The translations under genes and the position numbers were made by a program. From the NCBI GenBank assembly GCA_019637095.1, contig JAHBWG010000084.1, forward strand, positions 1 through 40,028: 40,028 bases of DNA. Reading direction: 5' to 3'. Below are positions 23,823 through 31,398 of the stretch, piece after piece; the first letter of the stretch is position 1, and each line of letters opens with the position of its first letter. Below the pieces are notes generated by a model that was not told where the DNA came from, ran no database searches, and was given only the letters and a program-made list of their open reading frames with translations. The DNA is from Sandaracinaceae bacterium (GTDB taxonomy: Bacteria > Myxococcota_A > Polyangia > Polyangiales > Sandaracinaceae).

Positions 23823-26018
23823 TCAATCGCCGACGACGAAGCTCTGGCGGGGCGACTCGACGGTGTGGGTGCAGTCGGTGGCTCGCGCGTACCAGTCATA
23901 GGTGCCTCGCTCGACGCCCGACCAGGTGAGCTCCGCCGTCGCGCCGGCCTCCACCCGAGCCACCCCGATCCGCACGAACGCTCCACCGCCGCGGTCCAGG
24001 TCGAGCTCGAGGGTGTGCTCGTAGTGACCTTCTCGCCAGTGCATGTCACGGGAGGGAGAGTAGGTCTCGACCCGCACCTGGTTCTCTCGTGGAGAGAACG
24101 TCAGGATGCGCATCTTCCCGTCTCCGCCGGTGCGGTGGTTCTGAGACGCGAGCGCATAGGGAGAGCTCGGATCTCGGTCGAACTGGTAGTCCTGCAAGAG
24201 CGAGTGCACCGTGCTCGCGGCGACGTCCGTGCGGCGCCCGTGGATCGGCGTATGCCCCCCGAACATCATGCGCAGACCCGGCTCGCCGCGGAGCGCTCGG
24301 TAGGTGGGGTCCCCCTGCGTCGAGAACGGCGTCTGCATGAACGAGCGCCCGCTCGGACCCGCGTCGTCCGTCGTCCAGGTGCCGAGCAGACACGAGTGCA
24401 TGCTCGCGAAGACCATGCGATCGGAGTGGTCCCGCACCAACCGCCGCGCCCACGCCAACACATGTGGCTTGCTGTGAGGCAGGTCCCAGTTGAAGAAGAA
24501 CGCGAGGAACTTCAGCTCCCCCGCCTCGAACAGGATGTAGGAGTCGTCGTTGCGGGTGCCCTCGTGCCCACCGTAGTAGGCGCGGCCCTCGAAGCGCTCC
24601 ACGCCGAACCACTGGTTGAAGCGTGTGGTCGGGCACTGGCTGCGCGTGTCGGTGTCCGTGTTCGTGTTGCAGTCCTGATCGTGGTTCCCCACCGCGATGC
24701 CGTAGGGGACGCCGTCCGGGTGGCCCTCCAGGGGACGCTCGAGCGTCGACATCGCGCGGTCGGCTCTCTCCCACTCGAGCACGCGGTTCACGCCGCCGGC
24801 TTGGTTCACGATGTCGCCGAGGTGGAAGACCGCACGGATGTTGCGGGTGGCCGCGTTGTCCGCCGTCCAGCGCGTCTGGTCGTAGAAGAGCTGCGGGAAG
24901 TGGTTCCAGTCGTCACGGACGTAGACCTGCGTGTCGGGGAGGACCACGATCGTGAAGGGCTCCGCCTCCAAGCGCCGCCGCGCGAAGACCTCGACGATCA
25001 CGGCGTCGCCGTCGGCATCCGTCGTCTCTACGTCGAAGCGCACCTCCGAGCCCGACGGGGACGCGAGGGAGGGCTCCACCGTCGGCACCGCGCTCGCGCG
25101 GTGCGGCCGCCCCACCGCCTGCCACCGCGCCCCGGTGACCTGGCCCTCGAGCCCCGCCACGCGATCGGTGACCGTGCTCCCGGAGCCCTCGCTCAGCGGG
25201 AAGTGCGCCACGAGCCCGAGCGGTCCCGGCGAGCGCTCGAACATCCCCGCCCGGAGCTCCTCCTGGCTCAACGCGCGGTCCCACACGCGCACGTCGTCGA
25301 TCAGCCCGTCGAAGCCCCCGGCGGGGACGCCCATCGAGTTGTAGGCCGCGCCGATCCCGAAGTGCTGGATGGAGTCGTGCCTCGGCACCGCCCCCGTCGC
25401 CACTTCGCGCCGTGCGTCGAGCGCTCCATCGACGTAGAGGCACCACTCGCGCCCATCGAAGGTGGCGGCGACGTGCGTCCACGCGCCGATGCGGATCGTC
25501 GCTTCACCTCGGATCGGGTGGTTGGCTCCCGACGCCATGTCCTCGAAGTCGGCCGCCAGCTTGCCGTCGGCGTCCACGACGAAGAGGTAGTTGCAGTCCA
25601 CGCGGCTTCCGTCGGACTCCCCGCGACCCTTGCCCACGATCGGCTCTCCCACGACGCCGCCGACTCCCGAGCCGGTGCTGGTCCCGTAGCCGTCCCAGCG
25701 GATCCAGGCCTCGAGCGTGAACGTCGCGAGGCCGAGCGCGGGCGCGACCCCCATGCTCACGCCGTCGCCGAGCCCGTGCGAGCCGTTGAACGTCCCCAAG
25801 AAGTCGAGCGCGTGGCCGCTCGTCGGCTCTCCGCAGGTCGGCGGGACGCCCGCGTCCTCGAGCCCGGCGTCCTCGAGCCCGGCGTCGGCGGCGGCCTCGG
25901 CGTCCCGCCTCGGGCCCGCGTCCGCTCGCGCGCCCCCGTCGGCGGGGTCGGAGGGCGCATCCGGCGCGCAGCCGACGGCGAACAGGAAAGGCACCGCGAG
26001 CGCGAGCGAGCGTGTCAT
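23823..26018 (-). CDS. LamG plus metallophosphoesterase lipoprotein, 731 aa
   Basis: A lipoprotein (signal MTRSLALAVPFLFAVGC, Cys17) with an Ala/Asp-rich linker (18-60) containing a duplicated AGLED unit. Residues 65-270 form a LamG/concanavalin-A-like domain (FTLEAWIRWDG; WTHVAATFDG; DDVRVWDRALS), usually a sugar or ligand binder. Residues 355-640 are a calcineurin-like phosphoesterase with PDTQ (D362), HLGDIVN (399-405), GNHD (444-447) and, later, MHS and GGHTPIHG, a full set of metal ligands. A short C-terminal beta domain follows. It should hydrolyse phosphoesters at the cell surface; the substrate is not readable from sequence. GC is visibly lower here than in neighbours (68% in line 24421-24480). 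Confidence 0.85.
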   Translation of the reverse strand: MTRSLALAVPFLFAVGCAPDAPSDPADGGARADAGPRRDAEAAADAGLEDAGLEDAGVPPTCGEPTSGHALDFLGTFNGSHGLGDGVSMGVAPALGLATFTLEAWIRWDGYGTSTGSGVGGVVGEPIVGKGRGESDGSRVDCNYLFVVDADGKLAADFEDMASGANHPIRGEATIRIGAWTHVAATFDGREWCLYVDGALDARREVATGAVPRHDSIQHFGIGAAYNSMGVPAGGFDGLIDDVRVWDRALSQEELRAGMFERSPGPLGLVAHFPLSEGSGSTVTDRVAGLEGQVTGARWQAVGRPHRASAVPTVEPSLASPSGSEVRFDVETTDADGDAVIVEVFARRRLEAEPFTIVVLPDTQVYVRDDWNHFPQLFYDQTRWTADNAATRNIRAVFHLGDIVNQAGGVNRVLEWERADRAMSTLERPLEGHPDGVPYGIAVGNHDQDCNTNTDTDTRSQCPTTRFNQWFGVERFEGRAYYGGHEGTRNDDSYILFEAGELKFLAFFFNWDLPHSKPHVLAWARRLVRDHSDRMVFASMHSCLLGTWTTDDAGPSGRSFMQTPFSTQGDPTYRALRGEPGLRMMFGGHTPIHGRRTDVAASTVHSLLQDYQFDRDPSSPYALASQNHRTGGDGKMRILTFSPRENQVRVETYSPSRDMHWREGHYEHTLELDLDRGGGAFVRIGVARVEAGATAELTWSGVERGTYDWYARATDCTHTVESPRQSFVVGD
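25853..25882. repeat. Two perfect 15-base tandem repeats
   Basis: The unit cgtcctcgagcccgg occurs twice in tandem inside the lipoprotein linker and keeps the frame, encoding AGLED twice. It is a likely site of copy-number change that would lengthen or shorten the linker without breaking the protein. Confidence 0.7.
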
Positions 26019-26119
26019 GCCGAGACCCTACACCCCCGACCGGATCACGGGCACCTCGCCGACTCCGAGGCTCCGCGGGCAGCCTTGCGCGCCTCGCGGT
26101 CGCCCGCGCACGATGGGGC

Positions 26120-26680
26120 ATGCGATGGGAGCCTTCGCGCGCGGTCTGGATCGCGCTCTGTCTGGCCGCGGTGTTCGGCGCCCGCGCGTCGATCACGCGC
26201 GCCGACGCCGTGCCGGCCGACTACGAGCCGCCGCGCTGCGCGGTGCCCGCGTGTCCGCCGGGCACGCACCCCTACGGCGTGGTGGGCCACGGGACGTGCG
26301 GTGAGGGCTGCACGCTCCCGCGCGAGTGCGGAGATCCCGAGCGCTGTGGGCCCGAGAGCGAGTGCCGCGAGACGCGCCTCTGCGTGGTCCCGCAGCTCGT
26401 GCAGGGGCGCGTGATCGCCGACACCGTCTTCGGGGAGTGCGGCGCGGACGGCGCGTGCGCGCGCGGGGAGTGCGTCGTCGCGCGACGCTGCGCGAGCACG
26501 CGTCCTCCGCCGGCGCCGCGGCCGGCCGGTGAGCCACTTCCCACGGAGCTCGGATGTGGCGCCTGCGCGATCCACGCACGGCGAGGGCCGAGCGCAGCGC
26601 TCATCGCGCTCGCGGCGTGGGCCCTCGCGTGGGCGGCGCGACGAGGCCACCGCCGCGTCGCGGCGCGCCGCTCGTCATGA
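26120..26680 (+). CDS. Cys-rich exported protein with MYXO-CTERM-like tail
   Basis: A 186-residue protein. ATG 26120 gives an N-terminal hydrophobic signal (VWIALCLAAVFGARAS). The mature region (30-135) is rich in Cys and Gly (CAVPACPPGTHP, GTCGEGC, CGDPERCGPESEC), as in small disulfide-bonded surface proteins. The C-terminus has GCGACA, a hydrophobic stretch (ALIALAAWALAWAA) and Arg residues, the MYXO-CTERM arrangement also seen in the DUF2330 protein here. Its stop meets that of the convergent kinase gene in the palindrome tcatga (26675-26680), so the genes end back to back with no spacer. Confidence 0.65.
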   Translation: MRWEPSRAVWIALCLAAVFGARASITRADAVPADYEPPRCAVPACPPGTHPYGVVGHGTCGEGCTLPRECGDPERCGPESECRETRLCVVPQLVQGRVIADTVFGECGADGACARGECVVARRCASTRPPPAPRPAGEPLPTELGCGACAIHARRGPSAALIALAAWALAWAARRGHRRVAARRSS

Positions 26681-27994
26681 GCACGCGGCGCGCGTCGCGC
26701 GGCGGCGCTCGAGCACCGCGCGCGCGAGCGCGATGAGCTGCGCCGGCTCGAAGGGCTTGGTGAGGAAGCCGTCGGCGTCGAGGCGGCACAGCAAGCGCCA
26801 GTCCGTCGCGCCCGCGACGGCGCTCGCGACCACGATGGGGAGCGTCTCGCCGCGCGGCCGCGCGCGCAGCGCCCGGGTGAGCGCGGCGCCGTCCAGGCCG
26901 GGCATGTCGAGGTCCGTCACGACGAGGTCGGGCCACAGGTGCTCGGCGGCGGCGAGCGCGGTCTTGCCGTCGGGCGCCGCCTCGATCGTCGCGCCGGGGA
27001 ACGCGCGCGCGAGCATCAGCCGCGTGAGGTCGCGGTACATCGGGTCGTCGTCCGCGACGAGGACGCGCCCCGGCGAGCGGGGCCGCGTCGCGCGCTCTTC
27101 GAGCGCGGCGAGCAGCTCGCGCCGGAACGCGTCGGCCCCGTGCGTGCGCTGATCGGGGAACAGCGTGAGCGCGCGCGCGAGGACGCGATCGACCGCGGCG
27201 GGCAGCTTCGTGTTCTCGCCGCTCGCGGGGGGCGGCTCCGTGAGCCCGCCGATGCGCGCCTGCCGGTAGGGCAGGCGCCCGGTCAGCAGCTGGTAGGCCA
27301 TCACGCCGAGCGAGTACACGTCGGCGCGCGGCGCGAGCTCGGGCGTCGAGCCGGCGCCGAGCCGCACCTCGGGCGCCATGTACGACGGCGTCCCGGACGT
27401 CACCCTCGCGTCGCGCGCCGCCTCGCTCGCGGGCTGCGCGATCCCGAGGTCGCCGATCGCGACGCGGAAGCCGGGGCCGATCAGCACGTTGGCCGGCTTC
27501 AGGTCGCGGTGCACGAGGCCGGCCGCGTGGATCGCCGCGAGCCCGCGGCACACCTGGTCGAGCACGAACGCCGCCTCGTCGATCCCGAGCGGCCCCTCGC
27601 GCTCCTTCAGCAGCGCGCCGAGGGAGCGGCCAGGGATGTGCTCCATCACGAGGTAGGGCACGCCGTCGAGCTCGCCGACCGCGTACACGCCCACGACGTT
27701 CGGGTGGACCAGGCGCGCCATCGCGCGCGCCTCGGAGACGAACGCCGCGCGCGCCTCCGGGAGCTCGACGAGCTCGGGGTGCACGACCTTGACCGCGACG
27801 TCGCGATCGAGCTGCTCGTCGTGCGCGAGCAGGACGTGGCCCATCCCGCCGGTCCCGAGCGCGCTCACCACGCGGTATTGGCCGTCGATGAGGGTGCCGC
27901 GCGCGATCGCGGCCGCGCGCGCCTTCGGTGGGCGAGGGGGCTCGGAGATCGTCTCCGCCTCCCGCGGGTCTCCCTCGCGCGCCCGACGGCTCAC
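26675..27994 (-). CDS. Ser/Thr kinase with C-terminal receiver domain
   Basis: A 439-residue cytoplasmic protein. Residues 35-285: Hanks-type kinase with a Gly-rich loop (LGTGGMGHV), K69, HRD (142-144, catalytic D144), DLG in place of DFG (162-164) and APE (187-189). Residues 288-425: response-regulator receiver with D295/D296/D297, phospho-acceptor D341 in VTDLDMPG, and the KPF loop. A Ser/Thr kinase fused to a receiver lets a two-component signal control Ser/Thr phosphorylation (inference). There is no membrane anchor, unlike many PknB-type kinases. Start is GTG 27994, overlapping the stop of the upstream histidine kinase as GTGA. Last gene of a four-gene cassette. Confidence 0.88.
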   Translation of the reverse strand: MSRRAREGDPREAETISEPPRPPKARAAAIARGTLIDGQYRVVSALGTGGMGHVLLAHDEQLDRDVAVKVVHPELVELPEARAAFVSEARAMARLVHPNVVGVYAVGELDGVPYLVMEHIPGRSLGALLKEREGPLGIDEAAFVLDQVCRGLAAIHAAGLVHRDLKPANVLIGPGFRVAIGDLGIAQPASEAARDARVTSGTPSYMAPEVRLGAGSTPELAPRADVYSLGVMAYQLLTGRLPYRQARIGGLTEPPPASGENTKLPAAVDRVLARALTLFPDQRTHGADAFRRELLAALEERATRPRSPGRVLVADDDPMYRDLTRLMLARAFPGATIEAAPDGKTALAAAEHLWPDLVVTDLDMPGLDGAALTRALRARPRGETLPIVVASAVAGATDWRLLCRLDADGFLTKPFEPAQLIALARAVLERRRATRAACS

Positions 27995-29130
27995 GCGGCG
28001 TCTCCGTGCCGGCTCGCGCGCGCGGGCAGCCACACCGAGAAGGTCGAGCCCTCGCCGGGCGCGCTCTTCACGGCGAGGCGCCCGCCGTGCGCGTCGACAA
28101 TCCGCTTGACGATCGCGAGCCCGAGGCCCGTGCTCTTCTCGCCCGCCGTGCCCGACGTCCCCTCCTTCGCGAACGGGGTGAACAGCGTCGCGAGGAACTC
28201 GGGCGAGATCCCGCGCCCGCGATCGACGACGTCGAAGCGCACGTCGGCGCCGTCGGCGCGCACGCGCACGCGCACCGGCGCGCCCGGCGGGGAGTACTTC
28301 GTCGCGTTCGACAGGAGGTTGTTGAGGACCTGGTCGAAGCGCTCCGCGTCCGCGTCGACGAGCGGCAGCCCCTCGTCCGCCTCGAGCTGGATGTCGATCG
28401 ACTTGCCGGCGGCCAGGATCTTGTTGAGCGCGACGTTCTTCTGCGCGAGCTCGAGCGGATCGGTCGGACGCACGGTGAGCCGCAGCGTGCCGGCCTCGAT
28501 CGAGGCGAGGTCCAGGAGGTCGTCGATGAGCCCGCGCATGAACGCGGAGCTGCGCGCGATGATCTCGACCATCTCGCGGATCTCCGCGGTGGAGTAGGTG
28601 TCGAGCCCGCTCAGGAGCAGGCTCGCGTAGCCGTACACGACGCCGAGCGGGTTGCGCAGGTCGTGCGCGGCCATCCCGAGGAGCTGGTTCTTCTCCGCGT
28701 CGAGCCGCTCGAGGCGCTCCTTCTTCGCCGCGAGCTCGCGCTCGAACCCCTTGCGCGCCATCGCGTAGCGGATCGCGCGCTCGAGGACCCGCGCGTCGAT
28801 GGTGCCCTTCTCGAGGTACTCGGCCGCGCCCTCCTTCATCGCGGCGAGATCCACGCTGCGATCGCCCGTGCCGGTCAGCATGATCACCGGCACGTCCGAG
28901 CCGCGCGCCTGCGCCTCGCGCAAGACGTCGAGCCCGGTGTCGCGGCCGAGCCGGTAGTCGAGCAGGCACACGTCGTGGCGGTTCGCGCAGAGCGCGGTGA
29001 GCGCGCTCCGTGCGTCGGACGCGCGCTCGACCGAGAAGCGCGCCTCGGTCGCCTCGCTCAAGAGCTCTCGGGTCAAGAGGGCGTCCTCGTCGTCGTCGTC
29101 GACGAGGAGCACCTCGATGCGCTCACTCAT
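27991..29130 (-). CDS. Hybrid receiver-histidine kinase
   Basis: A 379-residue cytoplasmic protein: N-terminal receiver (acidic pocket D11-D14, phospho-acceptor D58 in CLLDYRLG, conserved K108), a short coiled-coil (residues 125-150, ERELAAKKERLERLDAEK), HisKA with H156 in AAHDLRNPLG, and an HATPase domain (N275 in LLSNATKYS, GRGIS, STGLGLAIVK). With its receiver at the N-terminus, it can accept phosphate from the upstream kinase and signal on through its own His. Its ATG overlaps the stop of the upstream response regulator by 8 nt. Confidence 0.9.
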   Translation of the reverse strand: MSERIEVLLVDDDDEDALLTRELLSEATEARFSVERASDARSALTALCANRHDVCLLDYRLGRDTGLDVLREAQARGSDVPVIMLTGTGDRSVDLAAMKEGAAEYLEKGTIDARVLERAIRYAMARKGFERELAAKKERLERLDAEKNQLLGMAAHDLRNPLGVVYGYASLLLSGLDTYSTAEIREMVEIIARSSAFMRGLIDDLLDLASIEAGTLRLTVRPTDPLELAQKNVALNKILAAGKSIDIQLEADEGLPLVDADAERFDQVLNNLLSNATKYSPPGAPVRVRVRADGADVRFDVVDRGRGISPEFLATLFTPFAKEGTSGTAGEKSTGLGLAIVKRIVDAHGGRLAVKSAPGEGSTFSVWLPARASRHGDAA

Positions 29131-29575
29131 CGGGCAGCTCCACGATCTCGAACCAGTACCGGCCGATCATCGCGATCTTGTCGACCATCGCTTCGAACGT
29201 GACGGGCTTGCACACGAACGAGCTCACGCCGAGATCGTACGAACGCAAGATGTCTTCCTCCGCTTGGGACGTCGTCAGGACGATCACCGGGATCTTCTTC
29301 AACGCCTCGTGCGACTTGATCTCCGCGAGCGCCTCGCGGCCGTCCTTCCGAGGCATGTTGAGGTCGAGCAGGATGATCCCCGGCCGCGGCGAGCTCGCCG
29401 GGTCCGTGTACGCGCCGCGGCGCAGGAGGTAGTCCATGAGCTCTTCGCCGTCCGCCACCGTCCGGAGGTCGTTGCGGAGCTTGGCCTCCTCGAGCGCCTC
29501 GCGCACGAGCAGCCGGTCGTCGGCGTCGTCGTCGGCGTAGAGGATGGTGATGGGGCGCGTCTGGGGTCGGGTCAT
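29123..29575 (-). CDS. Rcp1/CheY-like single-domain response regulator
   Basis: A 150-residue receiver without an output domain: acidic cluster D15-D17, phospho-acceptor D71 in LLDLNMPRKDG, and K123 in VCKPV. The LNMPRKDGRE motif and the extended loop (MDYLLRRGAY) are typical of Rcp1-type regulators that pair with phytochrome-like kinases. It overlaps the genes on both sides (4 nt ATGA upstream, 8 nt downstream), so it is made together with them and probably shuttles phosphate between the two histidine kinases. Confidence 0.9.
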   Translation of the reverse strand: MTRPQTRPITILYADDDADDRLLVREALEEAKLRNDLRTVADGEELMDYLLRRGAYTDPASSPRPGIILLDLNMPRKDGREALAEIKSHEALKKIPVIVLTTSQAEEDILRSYDLGVSSFVCKPVTFEAMVDKIAMIGRYWFEIVELPDE

Positions 29576-31398
29576 GCGGCGCTCTCGGGTTGCGTGAGGG
29601 GGAGGGTGGTCACGAACGTCGTCCCGACGCCGGGCGCGCTCGTGACCGTGATCTCGCCGCCGTGGCGGCGGACGATCTTCTTGCAGAGGGCCAGGCCGAT
29701 GCCGGTGCCCTCGTACTCGGTGCGGCCGTGGAGCCGCTCGAACACGTCGAAGATGCGGTCGGCGTACTTCTGCTCGAAGCCGATGCCGTTGTCGCGCACG
29801 ACGAGGCGGTAGCGGCCGGCGCCGGCCGGCTCGCCGCGCACCTCGATGACCGGCGCGCGCGCCTCGTCGCGGTACTTGATCGCGTTGCCGATCAGGTTCT
29901 GCAAGAGCTGGCGCATCTGCGGCGCGTCGGCGTCGAGCGTGGTGAGCGGCCCGATGTCCACCGTCGCGCCCGCCTTCTCGATCGCCACCTCGAGATCGTC
30001 GAGGACCTCCTTGGCGATCGCGTCGAGGTCGACGGGCGTGAACGGCTCGGCGCGCGTCGTCAGCCGCGACCAGCGCAACAGATCGTTGATGAGGAGCTGC
30101 ATGCGGCGCGCGGCGCTCTGCATCCGCGCGAGGTAGTCGCGCCCGCGCTCGTCGAGCGCTGCGCCGTGGAGCTGCTCGATCCGACCGCCGAACGCGATGA
30201 TCTTGCGCAGCGGCTCCTGCATGTCGTGCGAGGCGGCGAACGCGAACTGCTCGAGCTCGGCGTTGCGGGCCTCGAGCTCCGCGTTCGCGCGCTCGAGCGT
30301 GGCCCCGAGCTCCTCGAGGCGCCGGCGGCTCTCGCGCCGCTCGGTCACGTCGCGCGCGCTCGCCACGACGACGCGGCGCCCCTCGATCGTGACGGGGCTC
30401 AGCTCGACGTCCGCGTAGAACGTCGTGCCGTCCTTGCGCCGGCCGCGGATGTCGAGCGCCTGCCCCATCGGGCGCATGTGGGGGTCGGCCGCGTACTCGG
30501 CGCGCACGCCGGCGTGCCGCGCGCGCGCCGCCTCGGGCACGAGCGCCTCGATCGGCTCGCCGACGAGCTCCTCCGGCGCCCAACCGAAGAGCCCCTCGAC
30601 GTGCGCGTTCGCGTACTCGATCACGCCGCTCGCGCCGACGACCACCACGGCGTCGGGGACCGCCTCGAGCAGCTGCGCCACGCGCGTGCGCTCCGCCTCC
30701 TCGGCCTCGCGCAGCGCCTCGAGGCTCCGCGCGACGGCGCGCGCGACCGCGGCGACCTCGTCGGGGCCCTGCGCGAGCGGGCCGAGCTGCGCCCCGGGAT
30801 CCTCGGCCTCCGCGGCGTCGCGCACGCGGCGGATGCGCGAGAACACGTCCCCGACGAGGAGGCCGGCGAGCACGAGGAGCAGCACGCCGCCGCCGGTCGC
30901 GAGCGCGCCCTGCCGCTCGAGCGCGTCGACGTCGCGCTGCGTCGCCTCCGCCATCGCGCCGACGGTCGCGTCGAGCGCACGCAGCTCGTCTGCGACGAGC
31001 GCGTCGAACGCCTCGGTCGGCGCCTGGCCGCGCGCGCCGGGGACGATCGCCCCGCTCCAGCGCGTGCGGTGCGCCTCGAGCCGCGCGCACGCGCCCGCGC
31101 GCGCGCAGCCGGGCAGCCCCTGCTGGCCCTCGATGACGCGAGCGAGCGTGGCGCGCTGCCCGGCGTCGATCCGCGCGAGCTCGGCGTCGGGGGCCCCGCG
31201 GGCGTGCGCGAGCGCGAGCGCGAGCAGGCGGTAGCGGAGCGAGCCGACCGCGTCGAGCTGCCGCGCCGCGCCGTCGAGGTGCGTGCGCGCCGAGCGCGAG
31301 ACCGCCCACGGCGCGAACGAGAGCACGGCGAGCACCCCGAGCAGCAGCGCGATCCTGCGGCCCAGCGAGCCGAACGCACGCTCGAAGACGCGCCGCAT
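29572..31398 (-). CDS. Membrane sensor histidine kinase with PAS domain
   Basis: A 608-residue kinase and the first gene of the cassette. ATG 31398 is preferred; a TTG at 31434 would add 12 residues. Two membrane helices (about 14-33 and 169-183) bracket a helical periplasmic domain of about 130 residues resembling nitrate/PilJ-type sensor domains (SLRYRLLALALAH). Then come PAS (about 239-365: VPDAVVVVG; GRRKDGTTFYADVELSPV), a coiled coil, HisKA with H391 in FAASHDMQEPLR, and HATPase (LIGNAIKYRD, DNGIGF, GTGIGLALCKK). The SHDMQEPLRK box is typical of phytochrome-like kinases that use Rcp1-type regulators, matching its neighbour. The signal sensed is unknown. Confidence 0.88.
   Translation of the reverse strand: MRRVFERAFGSLGRRIALLLGVLAVLSFAPWAVSRSARTHLDGAARQLDAVGSLRYRLLALALAHARGAPDAELARIDAGQRATLARVIEGQQGLPGCARAGACARLEAHRTRWSGAIVPGARGQAPTEAFDALVADELRALDATVGAMAEATQRDVDALERQGALATGGGVLLLVLAGLLVGDVFSRIRRVRDAAEAEDPGAQLGPLAQGPDEVAAVARAVARSLEALREAEEAERTRVAQLLEAVPDAVVVVGASGVIEYANAHVEGLFGWAPEELVGEPIEALVPEAARARHAGVRAEYAADPHMRPMGQALDIRGRRKDGTTFYADVELSPVTIEGRRVVVASARDVTERRESRRRLEELGATLERANAELEARNAELEQFAFAASHDMQEPLRKIIAFGGRIEQLHGAALDERGRDYLARMQSAARRMQLLINDLLRWSRLTTRAEPFTPVDLDAIAKEVLDDLEVAIEKAGATVDIGPLTTLDADAPQMRQLLQNLIGNAIKYRDEARAPVIEVRGEPAGAGRYRLVVRDNGIGFEQKYADRIFDVFERLHGRTEYEGTGIGLALCKKIVRRHGGEITVTSAPGVGTTFVTTLPLTQPESAA

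Follow-up and report, generated by a model that had tools for sequence, protein, structure and literature searches.

Probable wiring of His-Asp signalling to a receiver-bearing Ser/Thr kinase in a four-gene operon of a Sandaracinaceae bacterium and in related genomes

To our knowledge, the inputs of bacterial Hanks-type Ser/Thr kinases are mostly unknown. HstK of Anabaena combines a Ser/Thr kinase and a histidine kinase within one protein. In HsbR (PA3346) of Pseudomonas aeruginosa, as described in PMC6482189 and PMC12189002, a receiver driven via HptB controls Ser/Thr phosphorylation by a PP2C domain and a GHKL kinase. The fungal protein Rim15 is a protein kinase with a C-terminal receiver, whose role is apparently unstudied according to the account in PMC8510515. 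In Myxococcus xanthus, RedCDEF is described as a four-gene relay of the type T1-R1R2-T2-R3 without a Ser/Thr kinase (PMC3018481), and a survey of Azospirillum counts the Ser/Thr kinase domain among sensing domains (PMC4618731). The parts of the literature covered by our search contained no study of a Hanks-type kinase from bacteria that carries its receiver at the C-terminus and is partnered by an Hpt or histidine kinase; the architecture may be listed in a 2010 review by Galperin on output domains, which lay outside that search. Here we analyze four genes, A to D, that end in a Ser/Thr kinase-receiver protein (STK-REC). They lie in a stretch of 40,028 bases (contig C181, hereafter the window) within the 9.25-Mb genome of a Sandaracinaceae bacterium (Polyangiales, Myxococcota; G000, the home genome).

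His-Asp signalling is probably wired to a Ser/Thr kinase at this locus, and the wiring appears to be real and recurrent in related genomes. The explanation that we favour, with reasonable confidence, is that the genes form one coupled operon in which C phosphorylates Asp361 of D, A tunes C and B, and the output is Ser/Thr phosphorylation. All four genes are on the minus strand, with successive overlaps of 4, 8 and 4 nucleotides in the translated frames (29572-29575, ATGA, between A and B; 29123-29130 between B and C; 27991-27994, GTGA, between C and D). The GTG start codon of D overlaps the stop codon of C, and the starts of C (ATG) and D each have a GGAG 7 nucleotides upstream. Every domain in the operon scores above its Pfam cut-off and has its catalytic motifs in place, which rules out chance matches. 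An earlier note, made from the sequence of this stretch alone, had described four overlapping genes for a membrane histidine kinase, a single-domain receiver, a receiver-histidine kinase and a Ser/Thr kinase-receiver; translation and Pfam bear this description out (Table 1).

A combines a PAS domain with HisKA (residues 382-447) and HATPase (residues 491-602) domains, and its phosphorylated histidine is His391. The presence of two hydrophobic segments (residues 16-34 and 164-182) speaks for A being a membrane kinase; no such segments are found in B, C or D. The single Response_reg domain of B has Asp71 as phospho-acceptor. Its best solved relatives include RcpB, Rcp1 and RcpA (E about 1e-30), and B is thus by sequence a single-domain receiver nearest to the Rcp1/RcpA/RcpB group. 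C belongs to the receiver-HisKA-HATPase class described in PMC9239204, being a hybrid response regulator with an N-terminal Response_reg domain (Asp58) followed by HisKA (His156) and HATPase domains. These residues, identified by Pfam and motif check, had already been numbered correctly in the earlier note. Both A and C contain the N, G1, F and G2 boxes of histidine kinases. With these boxes intact, C is presumably able to autophosphorylate.

D consists of a Pkinase domain (residues 40-245) and a Response_reg domain (residues 311-423; 79.3 bits for PF00072, cut-off 30.2). The kinase has the Gly-rich loop, VAxK Lys, HRD, Asn, DxG and APE motifs of the Hanks type, with Lys69, Asp164, Asn169, Asp182 and APE at 207-209 as catalytic residues. 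Its nearest solved relatives are StkP, PknA and PknB, and a structure search with the predicted model (predicted local distance difference test, pLDDT, 83.3; predicted template modelling score, pTM, 0.81) again returned PknA/PknB-like kinases. D is not a PknB-type PASTA kinase: it reaches 229.7 bits with NCBIfam NF033483 (cut-off 450), over residues 33-303 only, and is without a hydrophobic segment. The receiver has the complete pocket of a response regulator, comprising the acidic pair Asp315/Asp316, the phospho-acceptor Asp361, Ser391 and Lys413. The acceptor had previously been placed at Asp341; on the translation it is Asp361, the motif TDLDMP beginning at residue 360. When D was aligned with 40 relatives, Lys69, Asp164, Asn169 and Asp182 were retained throughout, Lys166 was replaced by Gln in one relative (L070), and the receiver Asp was retained in 39 of the 40. 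The D tree has a main clade of 20 rows (100/97), and the window D falls in a separate group. Many STK-RECs of this main clade have HGD in place of HRD at the catalytic loop (for example L054, L055, L056, L057 and L058), so that the clade mixes RD and non-RD kinases.

Table 1. Coordinates of the four genes in the window and of the two domains of D.
Feature	Position	Strand	Description
Gene A	29572-31398	-	608 aa; membrane PAS-histidine kinase; translation and Pfam
Gene B	29123-29575	-	150 aa; single-domain receiver, Rcp1 type; translation and Pfam
Gene C	27991-29130	-	379 aa; receiver-HisKA-HATPase (hybrid response regulator); translation and Pfam
Gene D	26675-27994	-	439 aa; soluble Hanks-type Ser/Thr kinase with C-terminal receiver; translation and Pfam
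Kinase domain of D	27260-27877	-	PF00069 place in genome scan
Receiver domain of D	26726-27064	-	PF00072 place in genome scan

The linkage of C to D is not confined to the window. The two best matches of C in 55 other genomes, G003:C100 (50%, residues 4-371) and G014:C1001 (53%, residues 133-371), each directly adjoin a relative of D. The G003 pair, a receiver-histidine kinase and an STK-REC, is convergent. That of G014 is in tandem on one strand, the STK-REC first and then a PAS-histidine kinase, in which a PAS domain occupies the place of the receiver of C. The D relatives of G003 and G014 group in the D tree with the window D and the identical pair of G005 and G008 (98/94). A, B and C also recur together, in the same order and on the same strand, in nine other genomes (G043, G182, G222, G135, G114, G237, G131, G228 and G148), and the five best matches of A in other genomes are members of such trios (282 genomes searched). 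The gene after C was convergent, and not D, in 6 of 6 trios where it was readable, a figure that comes from crude calling of genes by GC position. Because this calling merged or missed some genes (no D was found for L046 and L044, and B was missed in some trios), counts were taken from homology searches. With the next gene convergent, C would be the last gene in these six trios and D absent.

In a tree of 25 relatives of C, the Cs of the nine trios form one clade (99/99). The window C falls outside it: its first partner is the D-linked C of G014 (95/87), with the one from G003 joining next (80/88). On this tree we reject the reading of C as merely the third gene of the trio. Given this position in the D-linked branch, the window reads as a trio-type A-B spliced to a C-D pair. 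The operon thus looks like a splice of two modules, part of a sensor trio and a C-D pair, as judged from a single tree with weak deeper forks. D might instead lie by chance beside a two-component operon of three genes, as the trios without D and the convergent genes that follow them could suggest. We regard this as highly improbable, since C and D are linked in two more genomes, the window C lies in the D-linked branch, and the GTGA overlap of 4 nucleotides couples the two genes.

Two observations on the arrangement of these genes are recorded separately. The open-frame ends of the convergent receiver-histidine kinase and STK-REC of G003 overlap by 11 nucleotides (L040, 4125-4135). An STK-REC of G226 (L236, 5846-9057) has a long linker, its receiver occupying residues 420-532 of 553; downstream of it on the same strand come a receiver-histidine kinase that matches C across residues 5-369 and then another receiver match.

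Elsewhere, STK-REC genes have other potential donors of His-phosphate as neighbours. In the main clade, this potential donor is an Hpt-receiver protein encoded divergently beside the STK-REC. When ten STK-REC neighbours were run against Pfam, five matched Hpt and Response_reg and the other five were other genes; an Hpt-receiver profile was built from seven such neighbour proteins. The Hpt-receiver is complete at 16 of the 20 main-clade loci and partial at two more where contigs end (L041 and L049). L062, where the contig stops 160 bases upstream, could not be judged, and L059, the second copy in G039, is without an Hpt-receiver. Sixteen of the 18 main-clade Hpt-receivers have a match to the Hpt motif H-K/R-L-K/R-G, the exceptions being L053 and L058. 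The home genome contains 119 PF00072 matches (140 of 140 candidates scored) and only 4 Hpt (PF01627) matches (51 of 51 candidates scored), two of which adjoin its two other STK-REC genes. At C156, an Hpt gene is followed by the STK-REC with a GTGA overlap identical to that between C and D. At C133, an Hpt-receiver is divergent to the STK-REC; its Hpt domain alone is weak (22.8 bits) and exceeds the cut-off only together with its frame neighbours. In G015 (L074), a histidine kinase gene overlaps the STK-REC by 4 nucleotides (ATGA).

The C133 paralogue of D, having an Hpt-receiver but no kinase within 3 kb, indicates that STK-RECs may be driven from unlinked kinases. In a rival reading, D of the window could receive its phosphate straight from A, or from an unlinked kinase via Hpt proteins elsewhere in the genome, with C and B serving as sinks or as a parallel branch. 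We consider this unlikely: three genomes place C and D next to each other, each in its own arrangement, the best relatives of C are D-linked, and no comparable link between A and D was seen in the genomes compared.

A histidine kinase or Hpt was present within 1 kb at 26 of 50 STK-REC loci (the window excluded; rows related to one another and several at contig ends) versus 0 of 20 receiver-less kinases (Fisher p 1.1e-5). Within 3 kb, the figures were 27 of 50 and 1 of 20. After clustering of the 41 rows of the D tree (window included) at 80% identity, a donor neighbour was found in 20 of 32 clusters, and in 7 of 17 clusters outside the main clade (p 0.0019), with neighbour labels assigned by hand from homology searches.

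Recurrent Hpt neighbours, and a pocket kept in nearly all relatives, fit a receiver that regulates its own protein. They speak against a reverse flow, in which D would phosphorylate A, B or C and its receiver would be a docking site or phosphate sink. Ser/Thr kinases that phosphorylate response regulators are described in other bacteria (PMC12189002, PMC12471899), and provide a precedent for such a flow; for the window we find it distinctly unlikely, although the receiver of D might still act as a sink.

Several points weigh against the explanation that C and related donors drive STK-RECs. The 20 control kinases all come from one genome, the home genome, and were picked by hand along its PF00069 list. 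With respect to Hpt, the contrast involves some circularity, as 7 of the 50 test loci supplied the proteins for the Hpt profile; histidine kinases alone occur within 1 kb at 7 of 50 STK-REC loci versus 0 of 20 controls (p 0.08). At 24 of the 50 loci, some of them at contig ends, neither a histidine kinase nor Hpt lies within 1 kb. These loci include the relatives of D in G005 and G008, which have neither even within 3 kb. One relative, L068, is without the receiver Asp. Finally, the exact A-B-C-D order, for which the earlier note had proposed a neighbourhood search, was found nowhere but in the window among the genomes searched, and a conserved four-gene order is accordingly rejected.

The kinase-receiver fusion itself is common in this lineage. 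D has 24 further matches at E ≤1e-92 in 20 of 56 genomes (the window's own among the 56). Close full-length relatives occur in 10 of 10 family genomes searched, and a match at E ≤1e-60 is found in 16 of 282 genomes of the phylum, again with the window's own included. Three STK-REC genes are present in the home genome (C133, C156 and C181). The fusion is thus no one-off, and the earlier view of it as unusual was wrong for this lineage. It is ordinary in the order Polyangiales, and the recurrent His-phosphate partners are the interesting part. A collection-wide scan for D used kinase-only patterns, and its hits were mostly receiver-less kinases; the top four (L109-L112) match D in both kinase and receiver. 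An Hpt-receiver neighbour is present at L109 (on the same contig as G009:C441) and L111, and not at L110 and L112; these four loci were left out of the neighbour counts.

The reverse domain order was also seen. In the home genome (G000:C161:27542-29843, plus strand), four receiver domains occur in a row (27542, 27896, 28273 and 28653), and a Ser/Thr kinase domain (29070-29843) shares the open frame of the fourth, giving a REC-STK. On a Gemmatimonadetes contig (L117, 850-2373), a receiver match comes first and a kinase match follows about 210 nucleotides on, on the same strand and as a separate match; this is possibly a REC-STK outside Myxococcota.

In the explanation that we favour, the four genes would act as one translationally coupled signalling operon with protein Ser/Thr phosphorylation as its output. 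A would sense a periplasmic or membrane signal and autophosphorylate, as its domains suggest, and would phosphorylate B and the receiver of C, consistent with the conservation of A-B-C as a trio. C, as a hybrid response regulator, would autophosphorylate on His156 under the control of its own receiver and, in line with the conserved C-D linkage, hand the phosphate to Asp361 of D. The phosphorylated receiver of D would then switch the attached soluble PknA/PknB-like kinase, in either direction, and the switched D would phosphorylate Ser/Thr targets. D would belong to a class of STK-REC response regulators that runs through the Polyangiales lineage, with other members neighbouring Hpt, Hpt-receiver or histidine kinase genes.

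The role of the receiver of C is where this explanation departs from the earlier note, which had proposed that phosphate could pass along the chain into the kinase. The core of that proposal, that His-Asp signalling feeds a Ser/Thr kinase via its own receiver, is supported by the recurrent histidine kinase, receiver-histidine kinase and Hpt neighbours and by the retained pocket. A strict linear relay from His391 of A to Asp58 and His156 of C and on to Asp361 of D, with C mainly a phosphotransfer protein, is not required. The A-B-C trio and the C-D pair are each conserved, and Asp-to-His transfer into a second transmitter has a myxobacterial four-gene precedent in RedCDEF, whose second transmitter appears unable to autophosphorylate (PMC3018481). 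C, in contrast, has all four boxes of a kinase core, and in G014 the D-linked C has PAS in the receiver's place, so that a receiver is unneeded there to drive D. For these two reasons we prefer a modulatory role of the receiver of C; the strict four-step relay is possible but not favoured, and on balance rather unlikely.

The operon is flanked by a convergent open frame of 222 residues (26012-26680, plus strand) that overlaps the end of D by 6 nucleotides. The C-terminal end of this frame has a cysteine, a hydrophobic stretch and arginines, a tail that presumably resembles a surface anchor of the MYXO-CTERM type. Next to it, a 731-residue open frame (23823-26018, minus strand) has a lipoprotein-like start, followed by what we take from its motifs to be a LamG-like region and then a calcineurin-like phosphoesterase.

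Hanks-type kinases are numerous in myxobacteria, with at least 153 PF00069 matches in the home genome (150 of 282 candidates scored). Should STK-RECs prove to be true response regulators, one could predict the input for a set of these kinases from the neighbouring Hpt or histidine kinase. Two major bacterial phosphorylation systems would be joined in a manner testable with two to four purified proteins, and the fungal Rim15 would have a bacterial counterpart. More tentatively, we suggest that Polyangiales may hold a standing class of response regulators with Hanks-type kinase output, each with a dedicated donor (Hpt, Hpt-receiver, histidine kinase or receiver-histidine kinase). The window would then represent a widespread sensor trio joined to a C-D donor-kinase pair, making a complete switch from membrane signal to Ser/Thr kinase in one operon.

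Compared with the known systems, D resembles HstK in combining a Ser/Thr kinase with two-component parts; the partner in HstK is a histidine kinase and not a receiver. B counts the phytochrome response regulators Rcp1, RcpA and RcpB among its best solved relatives. A itself carries PAS and transmembrane segments, and Pfam gave no phytochrome domain for it. RedCDEF, like the operon described here, is a four-gene myxobacterial cluster with two transmitters. The present operon is not of the Red type, which has a two-receiver protein and an output-less final receiver: B contains a single receiver, and the last receiver of the operon is joined to a kinase. In the HsbR system, as would be the case in this operon, a phosphorelay ends on a receiver that controls Ser/Thr phosphorylation. 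The HsbR receiver is, however, N-terminal, and it acts through a PP2C phosphatase and a GHKL anti-sigma kinase, in sigma-factor partner-switching, with no Hanks-type kinase as output (PMC6482189, PMC12189002). Rim15 is eukaryotic, and its receiver Asp is replaced in Ascomycota (PMC8510515), but it shares with D the order of a protein kinase followed by a receiver.

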